Source: an uncultured Pseudomonadota bacterium (GTDB taxonomy: Bacteria > Pseudomonadota > Alphaproteobacteria > Rs-D84). Taken from it: a stretch of 40,011 nt of DNA. The notes under the pieces were generated by a model. The model had not been told where the DNA came from and searched no databases. It was given only the letters and a program-made list of their open reading frames with translations. The position numbers were made by a program, and so were the translations under genes. Of this stretch, positions 190-35,407 are shown one piece after another; positions within the stretch are counted from its first letter, which is position 1, and each line of letters starts with the position of its first letter. The stretch is taken from NCBI GenBank assembly GCA_949288265.1, contig CASEJM010000004.1, positions 1 through 40,011 on the forward strand. Direction: 5' to 3'.

Positions 190-1251
190 ATGATTAAAAA
201 TTTGGCTTTTTTCTCTTTCGTAGTCGCGATGTTGTTTACACCTTGGGTAACAGCAAATGCTATTACTGCAAGGTCCGCCGCTTCTGATTATGTCAGTGCT
301 AATACTTACAACAATTTATACCCATATATGAACAACACTATGCGCACAAATTTAAACCCAGGTACTACCCCCTCTCAATCAAGCGCACAAATAAACGTTT
401 TAGCTCGTACAAAAAATACAAATAATACCCCAACAAGAAATGTAGTTCCTCGTAAATCTACGAATACCACAAGTGCTAACGCACGCAGCGCCACCACATC
501 TGGTACAACTGCAACTCGCTTGGTTAATACAACCGCACCAACGACAAGAAATGTTACCGCCAGATCTGCTTCTGCCGCAAATACGGCACGCGCCGGAACC
601 AATACTTCAAAAAATGTTAATACAAACAGACGCGTTGTCGCCCGTGCCGGTACAAATACTAATACCATGGCGCAACCAGTATCTCGTGCATCACGTGGTG
701 ACGGTCCTGTATCAACGGTAAGACAAGCTACTACAGCTGTATATACCTCAACAGGAGAAGCTATTTCTTCTTCTAGATGCATGGCTGATTATACGGAATG
801 TATGAATGATTATTGTGAACGAGAAGATACGGAATACAACCGTTGCTATTGTAGCGCAAAATTGGCTCAAATAGATTCAAAATATAAACCAGAAATTGAC
901 AGATTGATTAAAGAAATTTTAACAGTCCAACAAGAAAACTATTGGACGGAAGAAGAAATGAATGAATATTGGATGGACAAAGTTGGGCAATACTCGGGTG
1001 AAAATTCTTGGGAAAACTTAGATAATGCGTTAAATATTAATTGGGCTGACACAGAAAGTCGCGTTCGTGGTCAACAGGCGTTTGCCACGGGACATTCGTA
1101 TTGCATTCAATATTTAAAAAATTGTGCGTACATGCAAACTAACTTACGTGACGCATACCGCTCAGAAATTGCACGTGATTGTGCAACATATGAATCTTCA
1201 TTACAGCGGTTAAAAAATGCAGCAGAAAGTATAGTGGAGTCATATAAATGA
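190..1251 (+). CDS. Secreted low-complexity / CX6C-domain protein (short paralogue)
   Basis: A 353-residue exported protein of unknown function. Residues 1-24 form a Sec signal peptide ending TANA. Residues about 25-190 are low complexity, rich in Thr, Asn, Ala, Ser and Arg. Then comes a Cys domain starting RCMADYTECMNDYC, followed by CYCSAKL, a charged helical stretch, and a second CX6C (CIQYLKNC) before a DC-containing C-terminal helix. The same layout (low-complexity N-terminus, CX6C plus CxC) opens the 1084-residue protein at 32153, so the two are paralogues. The ATG has no clear ribosome binding site; a promoter-like pair just upstream suggests a leaderless start. The stop overlaps the next start as ATGA, so the two genes are probably translationally coupled. 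The paired cysteines suggest disulfides in the periplasm or at the surface (inference). Function unknown. Confidence 0.85.
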   Translation: MIKNLAFFSFVVAMLFTPWVTANAITARSAASDYVSANTYNNLYPYMNNTMRTNLNPGTTPSQSSAQINVLARTKNTNNTPTRNVVPRKSTNTTSANARSATTSGTTATRLVNTTAPTTRNVTARSASAANTARAGTNTSKNVNTNRRVVARAGTNTNTMAQPVSRASRGDGPVSTVRQATTAVYTSTGEAISSSRCMADYTECMNDYCEREDTEYNRCYCSAKLAQIDSKYKPEIDRLIKEILTVQQENYWTEEEMNEYWMDKVGQYSGENSWENLDNALNINWADTESRVRGQQAFATGHSYCIQYLKNCAYMQTNLRDAYRSEIARDCATYESSLQRLKNAAESIVESYK

Positions 1252-2087
1252 AACCTATGATGGGTATTGAATACGGTCGTGGTGCAACGGCCGTCCTTGT
1301 TACTCAGGGGCCAGCTTTGGCACCTGAAGTTGTAAAGCAAATGTATCCTGATGCGGATTGGACGACTGTTAAAGCCGACCCGTACGATGCAGATCTTTGG
1401 GAAAAAGACAGGTTTGGTGAAAACTTTCAAATTCAGAAAAAAGTATTAAATGCCACTCCGTCTGTACCGCATATAATGATAGGTGGCGATCATTCTTTAA
1501 ATTTTGGTCATTTCAGTGCGCTTGTCAACAGATTAACGAAAGAAGATTTATGTCTAATCTATATTGACGCACACCTAGATATACATACGCCCCAATCTTC
1601 TAAGGAAGAAGCGTCTGGGGCACCGCATGGAACTAACGTTAGGGCTTTGTTAGGTGAAGGTGATTCTAGATGGTTGTCGCTGCAAAAGCGTTTACCTGCT
1701 CTTCACCCCGAAAATTTATTTTATCTAGGCAGTCGTTCTTATGAACCATCAGAAATAAAATACGTAAGACAAAAAAATATTTATATGCGCGGTGCAGATG
1801 AATTACAAACAAAAGAAAACTGGGAACGTGCCGCAGATGAAGTTATGCGAAAGATAGGTTCTCGTAATTACGTGGTATCGTTTGACTTTGATGCAATTGA
1901 CCCGTCGGTTTTTAAAGACGTACTTGTACCAGAAGCAAATGGCATAAGCCTAGAGGCCGCAGAACACTTTGTAAAAACTTTTGCACCAAATGCACATAGC
2001 TTTGAGTTCGTAGAATATGCCCCGACGGGTGACGAAAATAGTGCATTTATTGTAAAAAAACTAATTGATATTGCAGCAGGTAACTAA
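1248..2087 (+). CDS. Arginase/agmatinase-family ureohydrolase
   Basis: A 279-residue member of the dinuclear-manganese ureohydrolases, which hydrolyse a guanidino (or formimino) compound, releasing urea or formamide. Metal-binding signatures are visible in order: GGDHS (about residue 78), DAHLD (about 104), an HG motif in the substrate loop (about 126), and SFDFDAIDP (about 210). A late glutamate in SFEFVEYAP matches the substrate-binding Glu region of arginases. DAHLDIHTP looks more arginase-like than agmatinase-like, but the substrate cannot be fixed by eye; formimidoylglutamase is an alternative. The ATG overlaps the upstream stop (ATGA), and GGAG lies 9 bases before it. The 3' end overlaps the convergent small gene by 3 bases. 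No signal peptide, so it should be cytoplasmic, although it is coupled to a secreted protein. Confidence 0.85.
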   Translation: MKPMMGIEYGRGATAVLVTQGPALAPEVVKQMYPDADWTTVKADPYDADLWEKDRFGENFQIQKKVLNATPSVPHIMIGGDHSLNFGHFSALVNRLTKEDLCLIYIDAHLDIHTPQSSKEEASGAPHGTNVRALLGEGDSRWLSLQKRLPALHPENLFYLGSRSYEPSEIKYVRQKNIYMRGADELQTKENWERAADEVMRKIGSRNYVVSFDFDAIDPSVFKDVLVPEANGISLEAAEHFVKTFAPNAHSFEFVEYAPTGDENSAFIVKKLIDIAAGN

Positions 2088-2287
2088 TTACAAGATTCAT
2101 TTTTTTCTTTGCATAACAAATTATGACGGTAAATATTTCTTGCTAAATCATCGCTAATGATGTCCCAGTCATTTTTACGCCCATAAATCGGTATGCAAGG
2201 AAAGCAGGCACTATTATTCTGCAATTGTGTATTGTTCGCGCAAGAAGTGACGGATATCGTACACACTAGTATTAAAAGTTTTTTCAT
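2084..2287 (-). CDS. Small lipoprotein, o-spanin (Rz1)-like
   Basis: A 67-residue protein with a lipoprotein signal, MKKLLILVCTISVTSC: the hydrophobic stretch ends in lipobox VTSC, with Cys16 as the lipidation site. The mature part is short (about 52 residues), with a CFPCIP motif near its start and an acidic/helical tail containing two further Cys. Its first 74 bases lie inside the 3' end of the upstream membrane-protein gene in another reading frame. That architecture is typical of phage Rz/Rz1 spanin pairs, in which an outer-membrane lipoprotein contacts an inner-membrane coiled-coil protein to fuse the two membranes. The family call rests on size, lipobox and overlap, not on recognised homology. 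No other phage gene is adjacent. A plain small lipoprotein is the alternative. Confidence 0.6.
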   Translation of the reverse strand: MKKLLILVCTISVTSCANNTQLQNNSACFPCIPIYGRKNDWDIISDDLARNIYRHNLLCKEKNESCN

Positions 2288-2438
2288 TTATTTTTTCCAC
2301 CGTTTTAATGATTGTTGATTGATTCTGCACATTTAATTCTGCTATTTGCGTCTTACATTTTTGTGACGAAACACGTGCACCTGCAAAATAAGAACCAACT
2401 ATAAAAAAAAATATCAAAATAAAAATATATATCTTCAT
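2214..2438 (-). CDS. Small inner-membrane protein with periplasmic helix, i-spanin (Rz)-like
   Basis: A 74-residue protein with one N-terminal membrane segment (residues about 3-22, almost all Ile, Phe, Leu and Val), then a polar, probably helical stretch of about 50 residues (KCKTQIAELNVQNQ...TVEKINEKT). It is thus anchored in the inner membrane with a periplasmic coil, the layout of a short i-spanin. The start has a weak AGG-type ribosome binding site about 10 bases upstream. Its 3' end overlaps the lipoprotein gene by 74 bases in a different frame. It sits downstream of rho on the same strand, but a hairpin terminator (2461-2487) lies between them. No holin, endolysin or structural phage gene is visible, so it is either a relic or a domesticated lysis module. 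The functional assignment is an inference. Confidence 0.6.
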   Translation of the reverse strand: MKIYIFILIFFFIVGSYFAGARVSSQKCKTQIAELNVQNQSTIIKTVEKINEKTFNTSVYDIRHFLREQYTIAE

Positions 2439-2460: not shown

Positions 2461-2487
2461 AAAAACCGCACTTAATAGCGCGGTTTT
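2461..2487. terminator. Intrinsic terminator downstream of rho
   Basis: AAAACCGC (2462-2469) pairs with GCGGTTTT (2480-2487) around a 10-base loop, with A/T tracts on both sides. It lies just beyond the rho stop codon and before the spanin-like pair, and could act in both directions. Confidence 0.75.
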
Positions 2488-8200: not shown

Positions 8201-10227
8201 ACGCTTAAAGACCCTACGTTTGCATCATCTGCCACTATACCAACCGTTGCCCCATTAGAAGCAGAAAGCGCACCATTTACCGTCAATTGTTGCGAAGAAT
8301 CAGTAGCAAAAGTTAACTTATTATTAGCACCTTTTACAACTACACCTTTTCCTACTGTAATAATTTTTCCAGCCAAAGTTACATTATAAGAATTACCACT
8401 TTGTTCTGCACTTATATTACCACCGATATTTAACACATCTTCTGAAGACATAATGAACTGTTGTGGTCCAGACGCATCTACATAAACATCACCCTTACCT
8501 GGCGTACTTGAGGTTCCCCCAACGTTAAAATCATTATTAATTTGGATAGTTTGTCCCGCCGTCACAGAATACGTTGAATTATTTATATTCATCGTACCGC
8601 TAGTAACACTTAACGCACCGTCTATATTAACACCACCTTTTAAAGTATTGATACTTAGCAAACCACCATTAACAGCAACAGCACCTATCTGCATAGCCCC
8701 ATTATTCGTATCAGAACCTTGTACGGTCGTTGTACCATCAGCATTTTTCAGGTAACCACTAATTTCAATATCTTTCGCATTTATATATGTTGTTCCAGAA
8801 ATGTTCGTTATATCTTTGGCTGTTATTTTACCAATAGCATTGGTATAAGCCGTAATACTTAAATTTCCACCATTATTAGACGCACTTTGCATTTGCACCT
8901 GGGCACCGTTTAAGTCCATCGTTCCATAATTTGATACATCTCCGCCGATATCTAATTCTGCCCTAGAAGCTATACTTGTTTCAGAATTTGCACGACCGAT
9001 AACGGCCTCGGTAATTTTTATTCCGGCACCTTCTTGATCGGTTGCATTAATAATTAAAGATTTACCAGAATTAGTTATGCTGCCATTAATAGATAATTCT
9101 GTCGCGATAAGAGACATATTGGCATCTGTATTATAAACGACATTAGAATCTACATCATTCCCCACACCATTTATAACATTGCTATTAATTTCTAAACCGC
9201 TTTTGGTAATAGTTAAGGCAAATTCTTCTAATTTATTCGAGAACACATTTAACCACATATCTGGATTTGTTTTTTCCCCGAATACCAAAGTCCCCGTAGT
9301 TAAAGAGAACTTATTCTTACTATTCATAGCACTTAAATCAAAACCGTAGCTAAGATTTGTCTCGTTTTCTACGTTGATTACTAAGTTACCAGAATTCGCA
9401 AAAGATCCCTCTTCCGCATTTCCGCCTTTTACTATCAAATTATTGGCGGATAAATACATTCCCTCTTTCTCGGAATATACATCCGAATCGTTTTTGATGG
9501 AACCTTTAACATAAACGTCCCCATCAACATCTATGGTCATCTTAGAGTTAGAATTATATATAGAACCATTATTAACATCTAAATTACCCGTAGAAGAAAT
9601 TGTCATATCACCGGCAAAATCACCGTTTTCAATATCACCGTTTTCAACCGTAATAGACCCTGCTGTAAAATTAGCTGTTCCGGTACTATTATTAGAAAAA
9701 CTTCCGATAGTGGCCGCATCAGCAACTTTTATATTCGTATTACCTGTATTGTTAAGGCTAATTGCACCTGTTGACATAGAATTAGCACTTAAAGAAAAAC
9801 CATTATTGATAACCGTCCCATTTGTTACCGAAAAATTATTTGCATTACTTATCACCAATTCGCCCAAAGCATTAATATTATTTTGCACAGTGACGTTTAT
9901 GGTAACAGGTTCAGTTGCAGACCCTTCAGAATACGGAGCCAATGCTAGATAATACCCATCATTTACAAATAGCTGATTAGAAATAGTAATATCTTCGTCT
10001 GAACGAACGGTAAATTTTCCACCTAAAAATGTACCGGCATTAAAATTACCGTCATCCTCCATTCCCGGCTCTATTTGTATACCAATATTCATATTGGTAA
10101 CGTTTATCGCCTCACCCTGTGGGGTGATATAACCTTCTAAAGGTTCTGTTTCAGTACCATTAACAACAAAGGCTTGCGCCCCAAACGGGGCCAAGCACAA
10201 CATAAAAAATATTGTCTTTTTCATCAT
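5290..10227 (-). CDS. Very large autotransporter with C-terminal beta-barrel
   Basis: About 1645 residues. An N-terminal Sec signal peptide (MKKTIFFMLCLAPFGAQA) precedes a passenger of about 1200 residues built of short Asn/Gly/Thr/Ser-rich strands (patterns like GDISNxGxLxxN), as expected for a right-handed beta-helix displayed outside the cell. Near residue 1212 a DTDGDGVADS segment resembles a calcium-binding loop. About 1290-1355 is Met/Arg/Glu-rich and helical, probably the linker that threads the pore. About 1360 to the end is the barrel, closing with ISGSYRF (terminal Phe). The frame opens at a TTG (10245), but the ATG at 10227 is preferred because GGAAAG lies 10 bases upstream; ATG 10224 is also possible. 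Surface adhesion is the likely role by analogy, but no specific ligand motif was seen. It is divergent from eno. Confidence 0.88.
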   Translation of the reverse strand: MMKKTIFFMLCLAPFGAQAFVVNGTETEPLEGYITPQGEAINVTNMNIGIQIEPGMEDDGNFNAGTFLGGKFTVRSDEDITISNQLFVNDGYYLALAPYSEGSATEPVTINVTVQNNINALGELVISNANNFSVTNGTVINNGFSLSANSMSTGAISLNNTGNTNIKVADAATIGSFSNNSTGTANFTAGSITVENGDIENGDFAGDMTISSTGNLDVNNGSIYNSNSKMTIDVDGDVYVKGSIKNDSDVYSEKEGMYLSANNLIVKGGNAEEGSFANSGNLVINVENETNLSYGFDLSAMNSKNKFSLTTGTLVFGEKTNPDMWLNVFSNKLEEFALTITKSGLEINSNVINGVGNDVDSNVVYNTDANMSLIATELSINGSITNSGKSLIINATDQEGAGIKITEAVIGRANSETSIASRAELDIGGDVSNYGTMDLNGAQVQMQSASNNGGNLSITAYTNAIGKITAKDITNISGTTYINAKDIEISGYLKNADGTTTVQGSDTNNGAMQIGAVAVNGGLLSINTLKGGVNIDGALSVTSGTMNINNSTYSVTAGQTIQINNDFNVGGTSSTPGKGDVYVDASGPQQFIMSSEDVLNIGGNISAEQSGNSYNVTLAGKIITVGKGVVVKGANNKLTFATDSSQQLTVNGALSASNGATVGIVADDANVGSLSVDEKSTLLASGTQITATEGGTEGGIDIGNGIWFNASKISSKPTSGLIVEGTDNLTLKSDKADVKVGGPVDLGAANTLSLEAGNSISVGGMINAAGTLNLIANSNSVILPNISIAGLNILNGGKVNVNSDVDSVYMGSSGAVSVNGDVIQGIPTSTQAGALNLLANDIKFAGTSLNVSGNYYANSGTAIFDFSDAVVLGDGDNGNISNGNINVADGADVTFGAASFMAKNISNSGSLTINSDKGINLALITNTGVLSLDSGAGMTNVDNFASGNLGTVTLKGKGLNSKENFTTQNAMLYQNYSGLLEPGTVNVVSDDYTITATNFEVAGIDQVSGKMQINASTVNVSGDIMASDLRFAKNQADTWIDATIEGTVSGGVDFWGIKSLDIVNGSYVFNNDSDLWAAIMPKNTSKYWSEIKASETNKIGEIINQEGGEALITVGDKFVSNISGIWNETATTKPQVGITLFDTVDQGSAIWLLHANNGISVTEEFEKLRNLDVQFCNADGTICVSYLDTLNKPGFGEYNGSDDKLPIYISERDTDGDGVADSLYIVFDPSFGGPVEVFKIQPIVGVTEPHTKGEYVSAGALDDLIAGQLLNTKFFNGTPIELIPQIFKGTNLSQMADELYDRMEYYNMTGDGTGLARFSRLFQARELEQIAGNIVLNEHTNFRDFEDRMFDEFIWNRNRSLKKAWLDVDYGMFFQNVSDGKHADGQRFNIAGGFDWQNSETTILGLTARVSNSSSDNSDTVDLGYLPKQSLLTNVDMTVDDLNIGLGGYLMKILGEKTRLYGNAFLDIHLLDISRDQALVDHIDGSGTAFSLISEWGLLHDWLNQYIVGNMYARVGYNFGFDVTEHAAGQDYMDMQSDGYLILTPGYSLTAQKRIYPSSWFQIRPYASIGVEYDVLGAPDYVKYKFALAHTYTKYDVDIDPLWANIGGGIEFLSVTGIQVGLDYRYQYNDSIQLHNIKISGSYRF

Positions 10228-10328
10228 ATTTCTATTTCTTTCCAACCAATTTTATGATTATATTATTGCACAATTCGTCGAATAACACAAGACGGAACTA
10301 TAAAATAAATTAATTATTTTAGGAATAA

Positions 10329-11603
<1,275 letters not shown>

Positions 11604-11618
11604 CAAAGAAACAAAACA

Positions 11619-11825
11619 ATGATCGCAACTTTTAACATTTTGCTTACAATAAAATACATACTAGCAGTAATGATTATTGTAATGATAATCCTTATGCCGG
11701 CTTGGCTTGCAAGTCAAACAGGAAAAAGTAAGCAAGACTCGATTCTTGTACGTTTAGGCAGTTGGCTTTTCCTTTGGACTGGTATCGGCTGGTTGTGGTC
11801 ATTGTTTTGGGCCGCAAAAAAATAA
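11619..11825 (+). CDS. Small two-helix membrane protein, superinfection-immunity-like
   Basis: A 68-residue protein with two membrane segments: residues about 7-30 (very hydrophobic, ending MPAWLA) and about 46-64. The second carries LFLWTGIGWLWSLFW, which resembles the conserved GWTGIGW-type motif of the Imm_superinfect/superinfection-immunity small membrane protein family. The connecting loop (SQTGKSKQDS) is polar. It starts 15 bases after eno and shares its terminator, so it is co-transcribed with eno, although its ribosome binding site is weak. The family link is by motif only; immunity to phage is not established, and many such proteins are simply uncharacterised membrane proteins. Confidence 0.65.
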   Translation: MIATFNILLTIKYILAVMIIVMIILMPAWLASQTGKSKQDSILVRLGSWLFLWTGIGWLWSLFWAAKK

Positions 11826-11852
11826 AAAACTCGCTTAAAAGCGAGTTTTTTA
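11824..11852 (+). terminator. eno operon terminator
   Basis: AAAAACTCGCT and AGCGAGTTTTTT form a strong stem with a TAAA loop right after the small membrane-protein gene, ending in a T-run. Confidence 0.85.
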
Positions 11853-11863
11853 TTAACTTGACA

Positions 11864-11888
11864 AAAATTATGGGGGAAAATCCCCCCA
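11864..11888 (-). terminator. Terminator of the 54-residue gene
   Basis: Runs of G (11872-11876) and C (11882-11887) form a GC-only stem around a short A-rich loop. Read on the minus strand it is followed by ATAATTTTTG. It lies about 30 bases beyond the stop codon of the small minus-strand gene. Confidence 0.6.
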
Positions 11889-11919
11889 AAAAACTAAAAT
11901 TACGCAATTATTTATTATT

Positions 11920-12084
11920 TTATTTTTCTAAAGAATCTGATTTTATATCCAATTTGCGTTTTTTCCATTCATTAGCTAAGTTTACAGCTGCAATACCCTT
12001 TTTCAAACCAGCAACGTGCGCCGCATGTCCACTGCTCTGAACAGCCTCAACCCCTTTTAAAATATCTTTTATCTTTTCCGTCAT
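11920..12084 (-). CDS. Small 54-residue soluble protein, unknown function
   Basis: A short gene: MTEKIKDILKGVEAVQ... to ...SDSLEK, stop TAA at 11920-11922. It has AAGAGG 10 bases before its ATG, a near-consensus promoter about 40 bases upstream, and a GC-rich hairpin downstream, so it has all the parts of a separate transcription unit. The product looks largely helical, with an Ala/His-rich middle (SSGHAAHVAGLKKGIAAVNLANEWKKRK) and a basic patch. There is no signal peptide or membrane segment. I recognise no family. The 13-bp inverted repeat around its promoter suggests tight control, possibly by a dimeric repressor. Confidence 0.7.
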   Translation of the reverse strand: MTEKIKDILKGVEAVQSSGHAAHVAGLKKGIAAVNLANEWKKRKLDIKSDSLEK

Positions 12085-12120
12085 GTTCTATGCCTCTTTA
12101 CAAACATCTCTCGGATGATT

Positions 12121-12170
12121 GAAATATATACGAATAAATATTTTTTGTCAAGTGTTTTCGTATATATTTC
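12121..12170 (-). promoter_or_regulatory. Strong promoter framed by a perfect 13-bp inverted repeat
   Basis: On the minus strand, TTGACA (12146-12151) and TATATT (12123-12128) are 17 bp apart, a near-perfect sigma70-type promoter for the gene at 12084. GAAATATATACGA (12121-12133) and its exact reverse complement TCGTATATATTTC (12158-12170) flank it: one arm covers the -10 box and the other lies just upstream of the -35 box. The arm centres are 37 bp apart. This is the arrangement of a two-site operator, or of a cruciform. It is not a terminator, because the arms are AT-rich and lack a T-tract. Confidence 0.7.
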
Positions 12171-12182
12171 CTATCCGATAAA

Positions 12183-13688
12183 TTATTGTGTACAGCCATA
12201 CATACCGCAGGCAGAATTTTGATTTGGATCAATGTATTCTTCCACTACAGTTACAGGAACCGCTTTTTCTTCGGTATAATGAACTTCTTTGACAACCTTA
12301 ACGCGACGGTTCGCAGCATTAGCAACACCGTCACCGGTCTGAACAGCTAAGTCTTCTTCACCGGCAGAAACAGCAACTATCTGGCTTGCAGGAATTCCGT
12401 ATTTTATCAACATTTTCTGGACGGCTTCTGCGCGACGACCACCAAGAGCATAGTTATAATCTTTACTTCCCATTGTATCGGTATGACCAACAACAGAAAC
12501 CTTTATATTTTTACTACCTTGCGTAGCCGTAGCCAACTGCTGTATCAATTCTTGATATTCAGGTTTAATCGTCGCCTTATCAAAGTCAAACATTATCTCG
12601 AAAACTTCTTCCATAACATGCTGCTTAGGTTCTAACGGAATTTGTTGTACCTTGATGAAAGTTTTTTCATATGTTTTCTCTGTACTTGCTTGTAATTTAT
12701 CAAGTCTTTCATTTATTGCTGCAAGTTCGGCCCTCATCGCCATCATCATATTGATGAATTCTTCACGAGTAACCAACTCATCACTTACTTGCGGAATTTC
12801 TTCTTTAGCAGCCGGAACGCAATTCACATCCCCTTCATGAGTACATTCTCTTACGCTGCTATCATTAATTGTTTTATCCCCACCATAAATATTCTGATTA
12901 AATACCATCGGCTGAACAGGTACAGGATTTATTAAATGTTCTGGAACATTCACATTATTTACTATTATGACACCTTCACGAGCCTTTCCCATTCCATTCA
13001 TAGCGGCCATATTACGGGTATCAGGATAATACGTCTGCGTTGAAGGTTTACTATTGCGTTCTACAGCATATAAAACTTCCCCATTAGTTGTAACCGTAGT
13101 TTCTGTAGTTTCTGTTTTCGTATTTATTATCTTACCACCCGTACAATCACGTAAAGCAGTCATTGTTTTATAATATCTATCGCGACATTCCTGAGCCGTA
13201 CCAGCCTGCCCACTAGCCGAAGCCGATAACCAGCAATCATACTTTGCCTGTGCCTCTGCGGCCAATTGAGGGTTCGTCATACTTGCATCGTTTTTTAACT
13301 GATCCAGCAGTTCATTATATGCGGTATAAAGTTCAAAAGATTCTTGTTCATTTTCCACAGGCCAATTATCCAAGGTCTCTGGGAATGGAAGTTCACCGCT
13401 AAATGCTGCAATCGCTTTTTGAGCAAAGTATTCACCCATATCTGGGTAACCACTTGTACGAGCATTATAAATAGCATACGAACGATAATTCATAGCCAGC
13501 TGATTTAAAAAGGAATCTTTATGCGGTGCGGAATAGACGTCTAAACTTTCTATATAATCAACAGTTGGCGTCGATGCCAACGCATATTCATCATTGTTAC
13601 TACCTGCGCAAGCCGCCAATACCGCAACAGAAGCAATAGCCAACATACGAGAAACAACAAACAGTGAAATTGAATATTTGTTTTTCAT
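12183..13688 (-). CDS. OmpA-domain peptidoglycan-binding lipoprotein
   Basis: A 501-residue lipoprotein. The signal sequence ends in lipobox VLAAC, predicting an outer-membrane lipid anchor. An alpha-helical N-terminal domain (about 40-190) with several Cys is followed by a low-complexity middle, a coiled coil (about 305-345, EEFINMMMAMRAELAAINERLDKLQ) and a C-terminal OmpA/Pal domain (about 361-467). That domain has FDFDKATIKPEY, GHTDTMGSKDYNYALGGRRA and the NRRV motif; its Asp and Arg bind diaminopimelate in the family. A short Cys-containing tail follows. It probably tethers the outer membrane to the cell wall. A TTG at 13691 precedes the ATG at 13688; the ATG is chosen, with AAGGAA upstream. 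Pal proper is much shorter, so this is an OmpA-like lipoprotein rather than pal. Confidence 0.9.
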   Translation of the reverse strand: MKNKYSISLFVVSRMLAIASVAVLAACAGSNNDEYALASTPTVDYIESLDVYSAPHKDSFLNQLAMNYRSYAIYNARTSGYPDMGEYFAQKAIAAFSGELPFPETLDNWPVENEQESFELYTAYNELLDQLKNDASMTNPQLAAEAQAKYDCWLSASASGQAGTAQECRDRYYKTMTALRDCTGGKIINTKTETTETTVTTNGEVLYAVERNSKPSTQTYYPDTRNMAAMNGMGKAREGVIIVNNVNVPEHLINPVPVQPMVFNQNIYGGDKTINDSSVRECTHEGDVNCVPAAKEEIPQVSDELVTREEFINMMMAMRAELAAINERLDKLQASTEKTYEKTFIKVQQIPLEPKQHVMEEVFEIMFDFDKATIKPEYQELIQQLATATQGSKNIKVSVVGHTDTMGSKDYNYALGGRRAEAVQKMLIKYGIPASQIVAVSAGEEDLAVQTGDGVANAANRRVKVVKEVHYTEEKAVPVTVVEEYIDPNQNSACGMYGCTQ

Positions 13689-13715
13689 CAAAAATTCCTT
13701 TTTATAATCTACTTT

Positions 13716-13744
13716 ATTATACGTTTTTTTGACATATGAGTAAA
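13716..13744 (-). promoter_or_regulatory. Promoter of the OmpA-domain lipoprotein gene
   Basis: TTTACT (13739-13744) and TATAAT (13716-13721) have a 17-bp spacer on the minus strand, about 28 bases before the ATG at 13688. Confidence 0.6.
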
Positions 13745-13785
13745 GCGAAAAAGTAGCGAATCAGAACACCTAAATTCGGTAAATT

Positions 13786-14604
13786 TTATTTACTGAACAA
13801 AGATGTTGCAAACGCACCAATCGTACCAACAGAACCACCTAAACCATTAGAGTTTGTTATACCGCTAACCGCTTCCATAATAGATCCTGTATTTGTAGGT
13901 TCCCCTATAGAATTAATCGTATCCTTCAAGAATTCACCCCACATTTCACGTTTCTTTGCATTCAAACGCGAATAGGAACATTGTTCAATTTTACTCATCA
14001 ACGTTCCGGCCATTTTTAATTCAGATGGACTATAATCCGCATCCGTAAAATCCACTAAATTAAATATATCATAAATGTTTGAAACTGTTACTTTATCTTT
14101 ATCAGAACATAAACCACCAGGAGACCCATCAGAACAATATGTTGCTTTACCTACCTTAGGGAATTTTTCCCACGGCATACCTTTATCCCCATCGCTTGCG
14201 AAATAATCATAACAAATCATTTCTTCCATCTCGGTAGATTTATAAAGTTCAACAGCTGTACGATACCCACCAGAGGCCGTTTCACAGCGTTTAATTCCCA
14301 ATCTTTTTTGAACTTCATCTGCTGTCATTACACCTGTTTTTGCCCATTCTTTAACAATATTATCAACAAAATTTATTTCCTGTGTACTTGGTATACACTC
14401 TGCGGTTAATTCTTTTTGTTTTGCGCTTAATTGTTGAACATTGCTAATCAAACCCAACACCGTCGGCAACAAGCTGCTTACCGTAGTAGAAGACGAAGAC
14501 TCTTGTGCCGCAACAGGCGCGGCCTTATTTATTGTAACAGCAGACGCCGGCGTTCCGCTTACGCACACCAAAGCCCCAATAAAAAATAGTAAAATTCTTT
14601 TCAT
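13786..14604 (-). CDS. Secreted protein of unknown function
   Basis: A 272-residue protein with a clear Sec signal peptide (residues 1-22, ending TPASA). The mature part begins with a Ser/Thr/Ala-rich segment, then a helical region (LLPTVLGLISNVQQLSAKQKELTAEC), and a Cys-containing core with about eight Cys, including ICYDYFAS, ATYCSDGSPGGLCSDKD and EQCSYSRLNAKKREMW. The C-terminus is Gly/Ser/Asn-rich and ends hydrophobic (GAFATSLFSK). I recognise no enzyme motif. It is probably periplasmic or outer-membrane-associated. A purine-rich AAGAGAG touches the ATG. The next gene on the strand (OmpA-like) has its own promoter, so this appears to be an independent unit, divergent from lptC. Confidence 0.75.
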   Translation of the reverse strand: MKRILLFFIGALVCVSGTPASAVTINKAAPVAAQESSSSTTVSSLLPTVLGLISNVQQLSAKQKELTAECIPSTQEINFVDNIVKEWAKTGVMTADEVQKRLGIKRCETASGGYRTAVELYKSTEMEEMICYDYFASDGDKGMPWEKFPKVGKATYCSDGSPGGLCSDKDKVTVSNIYDIFNLVDFTDADYSPSELKMAGTLMSKIEQCSYSRLNAKKREMWGEFLKDTINSIGEPTNTGSIMEAVSGITNSNGLGGSVGTIGAFATSLFSK

Positions 14605-14618
14605 CTCTCTTGGGATGA

Positions 14619-14647
14619 ATTATAACATAAAAAAAAATTATAATAAA
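14619..14647 (-). promoter_or_regulatory. Candidate promoter of the secreted-protein gene at 14604
   Basis: TATAAT (minus strand, 14619-14624) has TTTATT (14642-14647) 17 bp upstream. The predicted leader is only about 8-10 bases and consists mostly of the purine-rich ribosome binding site. Confidence 0.45.
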
Positions 14648-14655
14648 TATAAAAA

Positions 14656-14684
14656 TTGCTTTTTAGTTCTATTCGCGGTAAACT
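14656..14684 (+). promoter_or_regulatory. Candidate promoter of lptC-lptB
   Basis: TTGCTT (14656-14661) and TAAACT (14679-14684) are spaced by 17 bp. The predicted start is close to 14691, itself a GTG in the lptC frame. Confidence 0.5.
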
Positions 14685-15170
14685 GTGCGCGTGCAAGGAG
14701 ACAAACGAAGTTTCATCATATTCTTTAAGCACAGACGATTAAAGCGTCTGTGGCAATTTTTCTTTACTGGATGGGGTTTAGTCATGGTGGCGGCATTAAT
14801 TGCTGGTGCTTTATTTACTCGTCAATTATTATGGACTCCGATATCTGCGATAAACATGACCGATATAGTCAGTAATCAATTTAAAATGTCAAATGCGGCA
14901 TTTTTCGGAACGGACTCCAACGGAGAACCTTTTTATATACAGGCGGCAAGCGGTCGACAAGAATACGATAGGCCTAACATAATCTTATTGGATAAAGTTT
15001 CTGGAACAACCACCAGAATATCTGACGGTCAAAAAATAACCGACGACATAACAGCAAACAGCGGTGAATATGACCGAATAAAAAAAACAATTATATTAAC
15101 TGATGACGTGCACGTTGATTCAAGTAACGGCGACAAAATTATAACAAATGAATTGGTGATAAAACTATGA
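14685..15170 (+). CDS. lptC: LPS export ABC system periplasmic/bitopic protein LptC
   Basis: Up to 161 residues. A basic N-terminus (KHRRLKRLW) is followed by one membrane anchor (about 24-45, FFTGWGLVMVAALIAGALFT), then a periplasmic beta-rich LptC/OstA-type domain with repeated short strands (FKMSNAAFFGTDSNGEPFYIQA, ANSGEYDRIKKTIILTDDVHV). LptC links the LptB2FG transporter to LptA and passes lipopolysaccharide across the periplasm. The call is firm because lptB follows with an ATGA overlap. The start is uncertain: GTG codons lie at 14685 and 14691, but the only good ribosome-binding-like sequence (AAGGAG, 14695-14700) is inside the frame with no ATG, GTG or TTG at the right distance after it. 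A leaderless GTG at 14691 fits the promoter best. Confidence 0.85.
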   Translation: MRVQGDKRSFIIFFKHRRLKRLWQFFFTGWGLVMVAALIAGALFTRQLLWTPISAINMTDIVSNQFKMSNAAFFGTDSNGEPFYIQAASGRQEYDRPNIILLDKVSGTTTRISDGQKITDDITANSGEYDRIKKTIILTDDVHVDSSNGDKIITNELVIKL

Positions 15171-15895
15171 AACAATCTGTATTACGCGTTCTACATTTAT
15201 CAAAATCATACGGGAAACGTATGGTAATTAATGACATTTCAATGGAAGCTCATCAAGGCGAATCGGTTGGATTATTAGGTCCAAACGGTGCAGGAAAAAC
15301 GACCGCTTTTTATTGCATCACAGGTCAATTAAACGCAACAAGAGGACAAATATTTTTAAATTCTCAGGACATCACTCATCTACCTTTTTACCAGCGTGCT
15401 CGCTTACACATTGGATATCTTCCCCAAGAAAACAGCGTATTTCGTGGATTAACGGTCGAACAAAATATTATGGCAATTCTTGAAGTTGTTGAACCAAGCA
15501 GAAAAAAACGTCATCAAAAGTTAGATGCTTTACTAGACGAATTCTCAATAACGGCTTTACGTCGCAGCCCTGCCACTGCGCTATCTGGTGGTGAACGTCG
15601 TCGCGTAGAAATTGCCCGCGCATTAGCAAACGACCCAAAATTTATATTATTAGACGAACCTTTTGCAGGTATTGACCCGATCGCAGTAAACGAAATTCGT
15701 GATTTAGTGTCCCAATTAAAAAACCGTGGTTTAGGCGTTATCATAACCGACCACAATGTTCGTGAAACATTAGGAATAACAGATCGTAGTTATGTGTTAC
15801 ATGACGGGAAAATATTAAAACATGGCACCACCCCAGAAATTGTTAAAGATGAAATGGTAAAAAAAGTTTATCTTGGGGAAGATTTCGTTATGTAA
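15167..15895 (+). CDS. lptB: LPS export ABC transporter ATP-binding protein LptB
   Basis: A 242-residue ABC ATPase, normal LptB length. Walker A GPNGAGKTT (about 37-45), Q-loop GYLPQENSVF, signature LSGGERRR (about 138-145), Walker B FILLDEPFAGIDP, and the switch His in ITDHNVRET. The PQENSVFRGLTVEQN and DEPFAGIDPIAV stretches are characteristic of LptB. It powers extraction of lipopolysaccharide from the inner membrane together with LptF/LptG, which are not in this window. The ATG overlaps the lptC stop as ATGA, so the two are translationally coupled. A bidirectional terminator shared with carD follows. Confidence 0.96.
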   Translation: MKQSVLRVLHLSKSYGKRMVINDISMEAHQGESVGLLGPNGAGKTTAFYCITGQLNATRGQIFLNSQDITHLPFYQRARLHIGYLPQENSVFRGLTVEQNIMAILEVVEPSRKKRHQKLDALLDEFSITALRRSPATALSGGERRRVEIARALANDPKFILLDEPFAGIDPIAVNEIRDLVSQLKNRGLGVIITDHNVRETLGITDRSYVLHDGKILKHGTTPEIVKDEMVKKVYLGEDFVM

Positions 15896-15923
15896 AAAAA
15901 ACCGCCGCTGGCGGTTTTTTTTT
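15894..15923. terminator. Bidirectional terminator between lptB and carD
   Basis: ACCGCC (15901-15906) and GGCGGT (15910-15915) form the stem with a GCT loop. A7 precedes it and T9 follows, so it can terminate lptB (+) and carD (-); the carD stop codon lies in the T-run. Confidence 0.9.
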
Positions 15924-16488
15924 AAGATTCTTCATCGTCCACATCATCATCTTCATCATCAACATCAACAGCATTCAAATCAATTTCTTTTGGGACACCT
16001 AAAATATCTTCAATTTTCTCGGACGCAGCATCTATATCTATTTTATGCAACACAGCAAATTCTTGAGCCATACGTTCCAAAGCTCGCAAATATAACTGTC
16101 TTGCAGAGAAAGTCATAGTATCCGTTGCATTACGTCGCTGCAAATCGCGTACTACTTCGGCCAGCTTCATTGGATCCCCAGAGTTTATATTCTCTTCGTA
16201 TTGGGCGGCACGACGAGCCCAAATCATACGTTTTGCCCCCGCCTTACCTTTTGCTGAAGATATAGCCTCATCCATTTTTTTGATAGATGTTAAAGGTCGC
16301 AATCCTGAAATTTCTGCACGCTCAACAGGAACACGTAAAGTCATATGATTACGTTCAAAATCAATGACCAACATTTTTATTTTCTGCCCGCCTATAGTTT
16401 GCTCCTCAACGCGCACAAGCTTTCCAACGCCCTGCGTTGGGTAAACAACATACTGACCTGTTTTAAAATCTAATTTCTTACTTGGCAT
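15922..16488 (-). CDS. carD: CarD-family transcriptional regulator
   Basis: A 188-residue regulator that binds RNA polymerase beta and stabilises open promoter complexes in species that have it. The N-terminal RNAP-interaction domain begins KLDFKTGQYVVYPTQGVGKLVRVEEQTIGG and runs to about residue 60. A helical DNA-binding domain follows (about 75-160, with KRMIWARRAAQYEENINSGDP and RDLQRRN). The last about 20 residues are almost entirely Asp/Glu/Val, an acidic tail. A longer frame starts at 16542, but the ATG at 16488 gives the conserved N-terminus and has AAAGG about 11 bases upstream. It is monocistronic, with TATAAT at 16531-16536. Confidence 0.93.
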   Translation of the reverse strand: MPSKKLDFKTGQYVVYPTQGVGKLVRVEEQTIGGQKIKMLVIDFERNHMTLRVPVERAEISGLRPLTSIKKMDEAISSAKGKAGAKRMIWARRAAQYEENINSGDPMKLAEVVRDLQRRNATDTMTFSARQLYLRALERMAQEFAVLHKIDIDAASEKIEDILGVPKEIDLNAVDVDDEDDDVDDEES

Positions 16489-16530
16489 AATCTGGATACC
16501 TTTACAGTTGCCATTCTCTCTGTCCCAAAT

Positions 16531-16558
16531 ATTATAGCACAAAAAACAAGAAAAACAA
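16531..16558 (-). promoter_or_regulatory. carD promoter
   Basis: TATAAT (16531-16536, minus strand) has TTGTTT (16553-16558) 16 bp upstream. It lies about 43 bases before the chosen ATG, downstream of the preceding unit's terminator. Confidence 0.55.
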
Positions 16559-16569
16559 ATGACCTATAT

Positions 16570-16602
16570 AAAAAAATAAAAAACGCCCTTTTCAGAGCGT
16601 TA
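16570..16602 (-). terminator. Terminator of the Cys-rich gene at 16610
   Basis: On the minus strand, AACGCTCT and AGGGCGTT pair with one mismatch around a GAAA loop, followed by a long T-rich tract (complement of 16571-16583). It separates this gene from carD. Confidence 0.75.
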
Positions 16603-16609
16603 AATATCA

Positions 16610-17164
16610 TTATCTGATGGCCCTTCTTAGCGACCCGGACGTTCTTCTGATACTTGATTCTCGGCTTCCAGACGTTGTACCTGTTGATACAGCACAAACC
16701 CATTCACCGTCTTGCAATACCGCCGTCTGACCATCTGGACAATCAGGTTTACCTAAATTCCATGCAAAGCAACTGCCCCTTTGATAAGACGAATACGTTG
16801 CATTATCAGCACCACCATAAGTATAAGCACCATATTCAGGGTTCCAATACCCCTCAGGTTGACCGCTGCACCACTTACGGTCCCCAAAACATTCTATACA
16901 ATTACCATTAGCATCACATAATTCCATCGGATAAGCAGTTGTTTTATAGCCTGTATTTGCGCGATCGCCGCTTCCCATGGTCTTACCTGTTTCTAAATCA
17001 CGACACCATAACTTTTGACATTCCGCCGCATCAATATCATCAATATCACTATGCGATACCAAGATATAACCAGGTCCACACTTAAAGTCTGCCGCAGAAA
17101 CATTGAATGCACCAAAAATGATGGAACAATTTATAATAAGTAAAGAAAATAAAATTTTTTTCAT
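16610..17164 (-). CDS. Cys-rich secreted protein of unknown function
   Basis: A 184-residue exported protein. The signal peptide covers residues 1 to about 24 (MKKILFSLLIINCSIIFGAFNVSAA). The mature part has about twelve Cys in small groups (KCGPGY, AECQKLWC, LCDANGNCIECFGDRKWC, GSCFAWNLGKPDC), Tyr/Gly-rich loops and a Ser/Arg-rich C-terminus. The CGPGY motif also occurs in the large protein at 32153, so the two may share a small disulfide domain. The frame opens at 17188, but the ATG at 17164 starts the signal peptide directly. No catalytic motif recognised; probably periplasmic or surface-exposed. Confidence 0.75.
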   Translation of the reverse strand: MKKILFSLLIINCSIIFGAFNVSAADFKCGPGYILVSHSDIDDIDAAECQKLWCRDLETGKTMGSGDRANTGYKTTAYPMELCDANGNCIECFGDRKWCSGQPEGYWNPEYGAYTYGGADNATYSSYQRGSCFAWNLGKPDCPDGQTAVLQDGEWVCAVSTGTTSGSRESSIRRTSGSLRRAIR

Positions 17165-17190
17165 TCCTAATTCTCTATATTTACACATAC

Positions 17191-17219
17191 ATTTTACACG
17201 TTTTATATAACTTTTGCAA
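17191..17219 (-). promoter_or_regulatory. Promoter of the Cys-rich gene at 17164
   Basis: TTGCAA (17214-17219) and TAAAAT (17191-17196) have an exact 17-bp spacer on the minus strand. The predicted leader is about 20 bases. Confidence 0.6.
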
Positions 17220-17231
17220 ACGTCTTTTTTA

Positions 17232-17660
17232 TTATTGTCCCAAACCTGCCGGAGAAAAACGACCTATATTATTAAATAACTCCTGCAAAGCATTCAATTC
17301 TATTGCTGCAGGTATTTGAGTTTCATCCTCAGAAATTATAACCTTAGGTAAGTCCACATCACGTAATACTTCAATATCTGTAACAGTTTTGCCGTTGACC
17401 CAAGCCAAAAGAACAGTCTTATTATCATATTTTAAAGGCAGGGGCCCACGGTAATTTTCATCAACCCCATAATATATCCACACCTCATCCCCATAAATTG
17501 TCTTAGCCTGAGGGGAACCAATTTCTTGCGTTAATTGAGATGTTGTTTTAATTTTTGCAACTTCAGATTCTAAATCTGGTGGGAAAACATAACCGCGATG
17601 TTTGGTTTGAAAAGTACACGCCGCTAGAAATACAGTAAAAATCAAAATAGCTTTTTTCAT
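17232..17660 (-). CDS. bamE: Outer-membrane assembly lipoprotein BamE (SmpA/OmlA family)
   Basis: A 142-residue lipoprotein with lipobox FLAAC (Cys15). The BamE-like core runs from about residue 22 (HRGYVFPPDLESEVAKIKTTSQLTQEIGSP) through GDEVWIYYG, with the usual pattern of a helix followed by a three-stranded sheet. BamE is an accessory of the BAM complex that inserts outer-membrane barrels, consistent with the many barrel proteins in this window. The C-terminal extension (about 105-142) is not part of the minimal domain. It lies just downstream of nifJ, separated by a terminator. A weak promoter-like TTGCAA...TGTAAA in the gap may drive it. Confidence 0.82.
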   Translation of the reverse strand: MKKAILIFTVFLAACTFQTKHRGYVFPPDLESEVAKIKTTSQLTQEIGSPQAKTIYGDEVWIYYGVDENYRGPLPLKYDNKTVLLAWVNGKTVTDIEVLRDVDLPKVIISEDETQIPAAIELNALQELFNNIGRFSPAGLGQ

Positions 17661-17701
17661 ACCCCAAATTTACACCAAAGCTCCTGCTGATTGCAACATA
17701 A

Positions 17702-17730
17702 AAAAGTCGCCTTTTAACGGCGACTTTTTA
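17702..17730 (-). terminator. nifJ terminator
   Basis: AAAAAGTCGCC (17702-17712) and GGCGACTTTTT (17720-17730) form an 11-bp stem with a 7-base loop. On the minus strand a T-run follows. The nifJ stop codon lies in the upstream arm. Confidence 0.85.
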
Positions 17731-20700
17731 CCCTTCACTGTTTTCTTTAACTTCCGGTGCATTCATCATCGCAAAATGAGCGATATACTTTTTCAACTCG
17801 CTACGATAATGATTGTTTTCTTTTGCCTCTTCCACCAACCTATCAAAATGTGGATTTACTGCGCGTGCTGCACCAAAACGACTTTCTGTTTTTAAGAAAT
17901 CTTCTAATGGTGTTGGATTATCCACACTTGAATCCATAGTCAATGGACTTTTAGCCTCCAAAACCAATGACGGATCAAACCGATACAATGGCCAAGCACC
18001 GGTACTTACCATCTGCATCTGATGTTCAGCACCGTTCTGTAGCGCAAACCCATGGGCGATACATGGTGCATATGCCAATATAATTGACGGTCCTGGGAAA
18101 GCTTCTGCTTCACGGAAAGCACGAATCGCTTGCGCTTGATTAGCCCCCAACGCTATTTGAGCAACATATGCACCAGACATCATGGCGATCATACCCAAAT
18201 CTTTTTTTGCATGTTCTTTACCACCAATTGCAAATTTCATACTTGCCCCGAACGGCGTCGCTTTAGATTGTTGCCCCCCTGTATTAGAATAACCTTCTGT
18301 ATCCAAAACCAAAATGTTTACATTTTCACCACTATGCAACACATGGTCTAAACCGCCATAACCAATATCATACGCCCAGCCATCTCCACCAATTATCCAG
18401 ATAGATTTATCGACTATTTCACCGACCAAGCTGCGCGCCAAATCCGCTCTTGGCGAATCGATTTTATCCAACTGGATGCGTAATTTTTTTTCTATTTCAC
18501 GTTGCTTTTCATGGTTACGTTCTGCGAAAAATTCCTCAACTTTTGGAATATTTAACTCAAATAATAAACTTTTTAATGTTTCTCGCTTCTGATTCAGCGC
18601 AACACGCATACCCAAACCATATTCTGCATTATCTTCAAACAATGAATTAGACCATGCTGGCCCCCTTCCATTTGAATCGCACGTCCACGGGGTTGTAGGT
18701 AAATTACCGCCATAAATAGAAGAACATCCGGTCGCATTTGCGACAACCATTCTATCACCGAACAAATGCGCCATCATCTTAATATAAGGCGTTTCTCCGC
18801 AGCCAGCACATGCACCGGGAAATTCAAAATAATGCGGCAATAACTCAACATGTTTTGGGATATTCAAATTTAATTTTTCACGTGGAATATCTGGAATTTT
18901 CTGCGCTGCATTAAAGGCTTTTTGTTGAGATTCTGAATCTTTTAAAGCCATCATAGACAAAGCCTGAACCGGGCAATTTTTTACACAAACATTACATCCT
19001 GTACAATCTGCAGGTGAAATATTCAATGTATAGTACATATTCTGACCCAATTCTGGCGTTTTCATTGGTACAACTATTACCCCATCAGCTCTTGCTTGTT
19101 CAGCCTGCTTTTCTGTCATTACTTTAATACGAATCGCTGCATGCGGACATAAAGTTGAACATTTACCACATTGAATACATTTTGAAAGATCAATTGTTGC
19201 TACTTTTTCAGAAATGGCACGCTTTTCATATTTTGCTGTACCGACAGGATATTGCCCTGCTCCAAACTCGCCATCAACACGGAAACGGGATACCGGCAAA
19301 GCGTCACCACGTTGTGCAGCCATTTCACCCAAAGTTCCAGCAATTTCTGTAGGCGTATCTAATGTCATAGCCGGCACGAAATCTGGTGCAAAATTAGATA
19401 CAGATGACGGCAATTTGTACTCGTGTAGATATTCGGACGCCTTATCAACCGCGTTCCAATTAGCCTGGACAACATCCATACCCTTCTTTTTATAAGTTTT
19501 TTCTATGGCAACTTTTGCGCTTTTTGCCGCAACTTCTGGATCAATCACATGCGTCAGGTTAAAGAAATTCAACATAATGAAAGTGTTAATTCTGTTTCCT
19601 AAACCTAATTCCGCCGCCGCCGCATTTGCATTCAAGAAATATACTTTCGCACGCAAGCGCATAAGATGTTCTTGACTTTCGCGTGGCAGATTAGCAAAAG
19701 CAACTTCCGGCGACATAGACGTATTTATCATTACAGTACCACCAGCACGTAAACCTTTAAAAACGTCAAAGCGTTGCGCAATCATAAAATTAGAAACACT
19801 TATAAAATCAGCAACCTCTATCAAATATTGACTTTGAATTGGTTTATCAGAAAAACGAATATGAGATGCCGTCAATCCCCCAGATTTTTTCGAATCGTAT
19901 ACAGCATAAGATTGTGGGTACAAATCAGAATTTTCACCAACAATTTTAACAATGTTCTTTACAGCACCGACAGTACCATCAGAACCAATTCCGTATAAAA
20001 TTGCGGTCTTAAAATTAGGATCTTGAACCGCAAAAGCTGGATCTGTTTTCAGTGACAACCCGCTTAAATCATCATCTATACCGACTGTAAAATTATGGTG
20101 CAACGTATCGCGCATCAAGTTTTCATAAACTGCTTTTACATCACGTGGTTTAAATTCTTTTGACCCCAAACCATATCTTCCACCAAAAACGTTCGCCTTA
20201 TCACCTATAACAGTTTTTACATCTTGATACAAAGGTTCTCCTAAAGCCCCAGGTTCTTTGCACCTATCTAAAACAGCAATACGTTTTACTTTTTTAGGTA
20301 AAACAGATAAAAATTCTTCACGTGGGAAAGGACGGAATAAATGTACTTTTATTAAACCTAATCCCTTTGGAAGATGCGGTAAAGTTTCTTCTATTGTTTC
20401 ACAAGCGCTTCCCATTGCGACTATAACATTTTCTGCTTTTGGGTCACCTACATAATCTACTAAATGATACTGACGCCCAGTTAACTTTGCGAATTTATCC
20501 ATACATTTCTGAACAATTTCTGGGGTTTTATCATATAAAGGATTTGCTGCTTCACGTCCCTGAAAGAAAACATCAGGATTTTGTGCAGTACCACGAACTG
20601 TTGGTTTATCCGGTGTCATACCACGTTCACGATTTTTCAAAACCAACTCATCTGGAATCATTTCATGTAATATATCATCACTAATTCTTTCCAATCTGGA

Positions 20701-35100: not shown

Positions 35101-35407
35101 CTGCACAGGACAAATAGAAGCCTCTGATGAAACAAGTGCATACCCAGAAGGTCAAACATTGAACTGTAGCGGAGACTACATAATAGTTACGAAATCTGGT
35201 CAATATATGTCACCTAAATATACAGGAAGCTCATTCCAGAAACCAAATAATTTCTATCGTGAATCTGAAGATACGCAGACTAGAGGAACTTGTTCAAAGA
35301 CATATATAGAAAAATATTATAAATGGTACTGGTTAAAGGGAAGCGGCGACACAGCGGATCAGTGTAACGTTCAAAATCCTACTAATTGGTTATTAAGATA
35401 TAATTAA
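32153..35407 (+). CDS. Large secreted CX6C-repeat protein (long paralogue)
   Basis: A 1084-residue exported protein of unknown function. The signal peptide (1-26) ends CANA. Residues about 27-205 are Ser/Thr/Arg/Asn low complexity. From about 222 a Cys domain begins KCREVYYSCMDEFC...RCACSSRV, the same as in the protein at 190. The mature part has about 40 Cys. The spacing CX6C recurs: CREVYYSC, CGTDLQKC, CTTLTTQC, CTEVQSAC, CREVGRAC, CWNEVLSC. These pairs are embedded in helical, acidic stretches, suggesting a row of disulfide-clamped helices. The last about 250 residues are different: Cys/Gly-rich with SCGPGYISYWDAS, like the protein at 16610. The start has TAAGG abutting the ATG. It begins 75 bases after tRNA-Leu. 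A surface or periplasmic structural role is likely but not shown. Confidence 0.85.
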   Translation: MKGIKLLFIGCLTSLAFATFTCANAEDSMEAARSATRRNQSTTVFRQQTENDTDSQTASSSSVSRTTNLSTSGTGVAARDRSATNTSRTSVVVRDNGTRTNASSEEITQSVSARTTSSVMPRTTTSSTNVVSSPSRTAITRTPTATVQRTSSTPTRNTTIQSSNSRNATTNVSRSASINRSSTTSSSSSSARSATVTSAGRLSRAGTITAEEIINRDSTKCREVYYSCMDEFCANKDSQLKRCACSSRVNEFDSIKAQLAQVEDKLLDFNQRLLTVNMDKEDAEAIFEATEGELAFQKEDKSDSKKLLDEISKKLNTTFDTSTFDSKLAPISLSLNVDAAFDSVDSMAGYSTTAKTGTDLYRAALPVCREMALEICTQDELDIVESGYQMAIEQDCNTVSKAYQSQQDLAREKIREGSALLDISRLDIYQERNSDDILTCKKKMLDMLSNTSVCGTDLQKCLDISGQYIDPSTGEAILTSNLANLGNLITRPDKTQTWTNAPGNEKFVTYLNSKKMFLESATENCQDIADFVWDQFIEDALAQIKLAQENKLEEVRQSCTTLTTQCLTESAESLEEFDARALSIFGVEADKTVKQMCTEVQSACTALLDTIDGGQEWNTGMTDIATDKTYETILQTCREVGRACIIQSCKSISGNFGLCENIQTSVNRKAIINRTACWNEVLSCVESAGIDAINNITRLQSKSIDEQNGAFYTELYGTYNIADITNDELEADFKKEESCIIGENGNCIYDICAKECGFDSAAQTYTKKDSDKCQVCRLAEKVWGNCEAHPAVSLQQEDSHNQIKIPVKTFDNESQETLLSWFAKNTNTENVIDSCRDTSCGPGYISYWDASTQSSVCVPRSSVSDDGEICPSTFWQVNINGFFNCCKTDGNVSGSRDAFGNCCLGTTLGVGTNKINGVKWDTTKGYWDSNATPTELPKSNTSYKGTLSEDMDGGLCLPNNAKFVMSFPLSGTYYGNSGIGFLFCTGQIEASDETSAYPEGQTLNCSGDYIIVTKSGQYMSPKYTGSSFQKPNNFYRESEDTQTRGTCSKTYIEKYYKWYWLKGSGDTADQCNVQNPTNWLLRYN

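Follow-up and report, generated by a model that had tools for sequence, protein, structure and literature searches.

What is a pair of short, overlapping genes that resembles a phage lysis module doing in the chromosome of a gut bacterium? The pair lies in a 40,011-nucleotide stretch of DNA (the window, analysed here at its full length) from a relative of Candidatus Enterousia, gut Alphaproteobacteria with genomes of 0.8–1.1 Mb that are placed in the order Rs-D84 (PMC12306168). An earlier note, made from the sequence alone, had likened the two genes to a phage two-component spanin and left it undecided whether they are a domesticated lysis module or a prophage remnant.

Layout of the overlapping gene pair

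Both genes are encoded on the minus strand. The i-spanin (2214..2438), the inner-membrane subunit, has 74 amino acids, with one N-terminal membrane helix and a short polar periplasmic tail. The o-spanin (2084..2287), the outer-membrane lipoprotein, has 67 amino acids and a signal peptide that ends in the lipobox VTSC, with Cys16 as the predicted lipid-carrying residue. The o-spanin reading frame starts within that of the i-spanin but in a different frame, giving an overlap of 74 nt (2214..2287, minus strand); the helix protein, the lipoprotein and their overlap were confirmed at the coordinates first reported for them. Shine-Dalgarno-like stretches can be read 5' of both starts, including GGTGG nine bases before that of the o-spanin. 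An intrinsic terminator 3' of rho (2462..2487, minus strand), formed by an 11-pair stem and a T-rich tail, lies about 24 bp before the i-spanin start codon.

A generic pair finder, which looks for an N-terminal membrane helix and an out-of-frame overlapping ORF with a lipobox, returned exactly one pair in the 40-kb window, namely the i- and o-spanin, and none either in 558 kb of related loci without the spanin or in 40 simulated 40-kb windows (1.6 Mb). Among relatives, all 89 complete loci have an overlap of exactly 74 nt. An ATG start and the lipid Cys are present in the o-spanins of all 86 distinct pairs, the lipobox is strict in 74 of them and near-consensus in the other 12 (lipid processing and sorting are prediction only), and hydropathy indicates a clear N-terminal helix in 84 of the 86 i-spanins. 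The layout is conserved far beyond chance.

The conserved core of the o-spanin is PIYGRxxDWDxISDDLARNIYRHNxxC, and the family alignment of the i-spanin tail shows a conserved Cys and a conserved C-terminus, DIRxxLxxxYTIAE. Because three cysteines (Cys16, Cys31 and Cys59) are invariant in the o-spanin and one is nearly so in the i-spanin, disulphide-stabilised spanin complexes are possible; we infer only that they would suit this pattern.

Homology to phage spanins

The o-spanin of the window matches PHROG 1275, annotated as 'Rz-like spanin', with an E-value of 2.9e-8, as do all 37 of the lipoprotein relatives tested (best 1.7e-10). The window's i-spanin taken alone reaches only 0.13 against PHROG 1026, also 'Rz-like spanin', but 21 of 30 members of its family match that group, the best at 2.1e-8. 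The i/o pair that lies beside an endolysin gene in the Zobellviridae phage KZY1 belongs to the same two groups, PHROG 1026 and PHROG 1275 (4.6e-18 and 3.3e-8), and an Rz-like pair from the holin-endolysin-Rz cassette of an E. coli phage aligns over the PIYG..DWD..HN...C motif and the C-terminal Cys. Based on these sequence matches, it is nearly certain that the window encodes a real two-component spanin, although membrane fusion or lysis by it has not been assayed.

The search of spanin collections bore out the identity proposed in the earlier note. That proposal would have fallen with a missing lipoprotein signal, a frame not conserved in relatives or clear homology to an unrelated small membrane protein; instead, the lipobox is conserved, both frames are open in relatives and the homology is to phage spanins. 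The architecture had been described as embedded and needs correction: the o-gene merely overlaps the i-gene, unlike lambda Rz1, and the pair is of the overlapped class as defined in a survey of spanins (PMC6139136).

Pfam yielded nothing above cut-off for either protein, and a weak match of the i-spanin to T4 Spackle (0.019) was rejected as an identification. No close relatives of the pair were found in IMG/VR, and a class-wide search recovered it only in the window's genus (3 of 385 sampled genomes).

Distribution, inheritance and locus context

The i-spanin was detected in 89 of 96 genomes of the genus, or 66 of the 68 good ones, and the o-spanin in 160 of 183 genomes of the family, representing 11 of its 13 genera. 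A profile search with the o-spanin reached 13 of the 23 genera of the order, with only a weak match beyond the family. The pair is normally present in one copy per genome.

Its usual position is between rho and the gene of a Cys-rich secreted protein, with or without a ureohydrolase gene; the two neighbours named in the earlier note, ureohydrolase and rho, were confirmed in the window. There are no phage genes at the locus, where the neighbours are rho, the ureohydrolase and the Cys-rich secreted protein. The pair is not beside holin or endolysin genes there; adjacency to such genes is typical of phage spanins but does not define them. In many genomes other genes have been inserted around the pair, and in genus g10 it sits beside the lon region. 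Since its surroundings vary in these ways, the pair itself is the conserved unit. Of the overlap and the locus, whose conservation the earlier note suggested checking, the overlap is fixed; the surroundings differ through insertions, the optional ureohydrolase gene and the lon location in g10.

The Cys-rich secreted protein (190–1251, plus strand), of unknown family, adjoins the pair in most relatives; other parts of the genome encode several larger proteins with weak similarity to this one. The window also contains a Ser/Thr/Asn-rich ORF of 1084 amino acids (32153–35407). In relatives, large surface-type proteins are inserted in the gap between rho and the i-spanin (L082, 5065–7776; L110, 960–7799), adding 0.7–7 kb. 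Contigs often end at this insertion site and can thereby mimic gene loss. About ten genomes seem to lack both the spanin and its neighbour p353, but this apparent joint loss was not accepted as evidence about function, because it reflects contig breaks or missing sequence: rho is missing as well in G021 and G074, the contig of G012 ends about 0.7 kb beyond rho, and G024 has the same break as G012 yet keeps p353 on another contig. One loss is likely to be real, that in G178, where a peptidase-like gene occupies the interval between rho and p353.

Outside the overlap, the o-spanin has an omega of 0.27, indicating purifying selection, and the i-spanin one of about 0.73, which is weakly constrained and near saturation. 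Distances between o-spanins correlate with those of host dnaB (r = 0.49). The best explanation is that the spanin was captured by an ancestor of the family that includes Candidatus Enterousia and then inherited vertically as a stand-alone pair, although this history is reconstructed rather than observed. Near-universal, single-copy and vertical conservation supports the suggestion of a domesticated lysis module. A neutral remnant of an old prophage, to which the clear phage homology would lend itself, is scarcely tenable: both frames are open, the overlap is fixed, the lipid Cys is retained in every distinct pair, the o-spanin is under purifying selection and the genomes are only 0.8–1.1 Mb in size.

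How the pair is expressed is less clear. Most relatives in the genus have a terminator-like hairpin a few tens of bases before the i-spanin start, although its sequence differs. Read-through, antitermination, as known for the Caulobacter gene transfer agent (GTA; PMC11150451), or a promoter that overlaps the hairpin are all possible. In genus g10, a sigma-70-like promoter, TTGATT-17-TATAAT, was read by eye at the pair and suggests constitutive expression.

Such expression would also be expected if the domesticated spanin served the host envelope without any link to a GTA-like element, as would the occurrence of the pair in almost all genomes and at differing sites on the chromosome. It could be a tether, linking the inner to the outer membrane without lysis, or a dead-man switch, lysing the cell when the wall is breached by a phage endolysin, an antibiotic or a predator; spanins do remain silent until the wall is degraded, as established for lambda. 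However, no gap in the envelope is evident, with Tol-Pal (TolB) present, and a partner system that carries an endolysin is ready in the same genomes. We therefore regard an independent envelope function as possible but unlikely.

A podovirus-derived gene cluster in the same genomes

That partner system is a cluster of phage genes on another contig of the same genome, C25 (about 8443–20657 of the contig; L208/L209). A portal search with PF04860 found no match in 59 genomes, whereas the control, Caulobacter vibrioides, matched; the inference from this negative that the genome has no phage element was wrong, because the genome has a podovirus-type portal, PF12236. The cluster was reached through weak but recurrent terminase matches with phage-like neighbours, followed by reading of C25.

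In cluster order, and on one strand, the genes encode an endolysin (PHROG 938), a holin-like protein of 72 amino acids with two helices (no family match, called by appearance), a scaffold-like protein, the major capsid protein (PF19821, 1.4e-73), tail tube proteins A and B (tail PHROG 376, 1.9e-84) followed by a 115-aa protein, the ATPase half of the terminase, its nuclease half (PHROG 38, 2e-40 and 3e-43 for the halves) and the portal (PF12236, 8.7e-82) followed by two small proteins. The terminase halves are separated by dnaB and two other genes on the opposite strand. In G027 a longer relative of the endolysin shows a further, sub-threshold resemblance to Pfam Hydrolase_2, and a Lys/Ala/Pro-rich, histone-like protein is encoded between the scaffold and capsid genes (L208, 18973–19281).

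The same gene order, including the terminase split around dnaB, occurs in 28 further genomes of the genus, some on contigs that are cut short. The cluster genes vary little in length between genomes, and their omega values range from 0.07 to 0.35 (capsid 0.086, portal 0.07), although these are rough because synonymous sites are near saturation. Their distances correlate with those of host dnaB (r = 0.63 for the capsid). Only host genes were recognised where replication and integration genes were looked for around the cluster, in the regions read rather than the whole genome. The cluster thus comprises intact phage head, packaging and tail genes that are vertically inherited under purifying selection. 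The earlier note's remark that holin, endolysin and capsid genes are missing nearby is correct for the locus only; elsewhere in the genome, C25 carries a capsid gene, an endolysin gene and a holin-like gene. No overlapping spanin pair was found on C25.

A GH24 phage-type endolysin is encoded on contig C41 (L210, 17148–17642; PHROG 7, 2.4e-35) near glycosyltransferase genes, and Phage_lysozyme matches occur in 44 of 59 genomes of the genus in varied settings. This endolysin was rejected as the partner of the spanin because it is patchy and partly prophage-associated. Phage-type GH24 lysozyme genes in many genomes, and the survey result that no spanin could be identified in about 13% of the phages analysed (PMC6139136), would fit a pair that serves the lysis of resident or infecting phages without a spanin of their own, or one that blocks them by premature lysis (abortive infection). 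Genes of that kind are typically patchy, however, and single-copy core status with host-like divergence would be unusual for them, so that we find a role as phage helper or defence improbable.

Among annotated phages, the cluster is nearest to podoviruses of Pelagibacter and to a phage scaffold of 5 kb from human faeces. Phage-like relatives in IMG/VR with 59–62% capsid identity have an unsplit terminase. No spanin pair is recognisable in the nearest phages (Pelagibacter phage Hodr and the IMG/VR relatives), so the spanin and the cluster may differ in phage origin. Another IMG/VR sequence (L305, IMGVR_UViG_3300039008_000341, 8416–10261) has 66% capsid identity. Its terminase is likewise divided into two ORFs, pilin-like genes lie between these and the portal gene, and a tail-fibre-like gene is present; this sequence is possibly the same element in another lineage. 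The faecal scaffold (L241, MT838907.1, 5084 bp), an unverified 'Bacteriophage sp.', has a portal-scaffold-capsid-tail tube set with 63% capsid identity and could represent either a phage or a further GTA-like locus.

A proposed role in particle release

We propose, with a probability of about 0.6, that the pair acts as a detached module for outer-membrane lysis, serving a podovirus-type GTA that is so far undescribed, the functional link between the two being inferred. Because a permanent single-copy pair and a conserved phage cluster are present in the same genomes, the pair probably helps to release gene-transfer particles. The earlier note had named GTAs as an example, and the podovirus-derived head, tail, packaging and endolysin genes lend this unexpected support, although their joint working with the pair is likewise inferred. 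That the element is a new type of GTA, a podovirus fixed in the Enterousia/Rs-D84 chromosome with its terminase split by dnaB and its spanin detached, we consider an even bet.

In the proposed mechanism, the cluster would make GTA-like particles, and in producing cells the holin-like protein would release the endolysin, which would cut the peptidoglycan. Complexes of i- and o-spanin would bridge both membranes, caged by the wall until it is cut; once freed, they would fuse the two membranes and thereby open the outer membrane. In lambda it is established that spanins stay silent until the wall has been cut and act only then. The pair would therefore need neither a location in the cluster nor tight co-regulation with it, and a move to the neighbourhood of rho, or in g10 to the lon region, would have done no harm.

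Several weaknesses remain. In the window genome the pair and the cluster are not physically linked, a regulatory motif common to both has not been shown and the co-occurrence data are limited to the genus. Because the periplasmic parts of the pair are short (about 52 + 52 residues), it is not assured that they would span a wide periplasm. The GTA reading rests on conservation and gene content alone, without particle, packaging or lysis data.

The spanin is a known kind of protein pair in a new setting: spanins are known as phage genes, and the Enterousia family carries one as a near-universal core pair of the chromosome. The cluster is apparently a new podovirus-type GTA-like element. In the literature searched (open-licence papers only), we found neither a report of a GTA for Enterousia or Rs-D84 nor a spanin of any GTA. 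Taken together, spanin and cluster suggest that diderm gut bacteria with genomes below about 1.1 Mb have a podovirus-type GTA. If confirmed, such a GTA would give symbionts with reduced genomes a way to exchange genes and would serve as a test case for how GTA producers open the outer membrane.

Comparison with known systems

Overlapped-class phage spanins such as that of the Zobellviridae phage KZY1-k141_1938105 share with the Enterousia pair not only PHROG 1026 (i) and 1275 (o) but also similar protein sizes (74 aa for i; about 66–75 aa for o), overlapping frames, the lipobox, the [IV]Y..D.D.ISDELAR motif and the C-terminal Cys. The phage pair belongs to a lysis cassette and adjoins the endolysin, whereas the Enterousia pair is stand-alone, vertically inherited and chromosomal. 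Lambda Rz/Rz1 likewise combines an inner-membrane protein with an outer-membrane lipoprotein in overlapping frames and is thought to fuse membranes, but Rz1 is fully embedded in Rz and proline-rich, while the Enterousia o-gene only overlaps and its product is not proline-rich; the two were not compared directly. DLP12 of E. coli K-12 also provides chromosomal phage lysis genes, studied for outer membrane vesicle production, but is a defective prophage in which the lysis genes stay together as a module (PMC7918800).

Like the GTAs of Rhodobacter and Caulobacter (RcGTA/CcGTA), the proposed element has an alphaproteobacterial host, vertical inheritance and accessory genes scattered outside the main cluster; it differs from the RcGTA type in its portal, as Phage_portal (PF04860) is matched in Caulobacter and absent in Enterousia. 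Lysis is attributed to a holin-endolysin system in Rhodobacter and to LypABC in Caulobacter, and neither is assigned a spanin in the part of the source available (PMC13236601). A further parallel is FpGTA of Faecalibacterium, described in January 2026 as the first element of GTA type from the human gut and as the first whose morphology is podovirus-like (PMC12946183). It too is a podovirus-like gut element, and its structural genes and lysis genes form separate operons, a likeness drawn without sequence comparison, but its Gram-positive host needs no spanin, whereas Enterousia is a diderm alphaproteobacterium.
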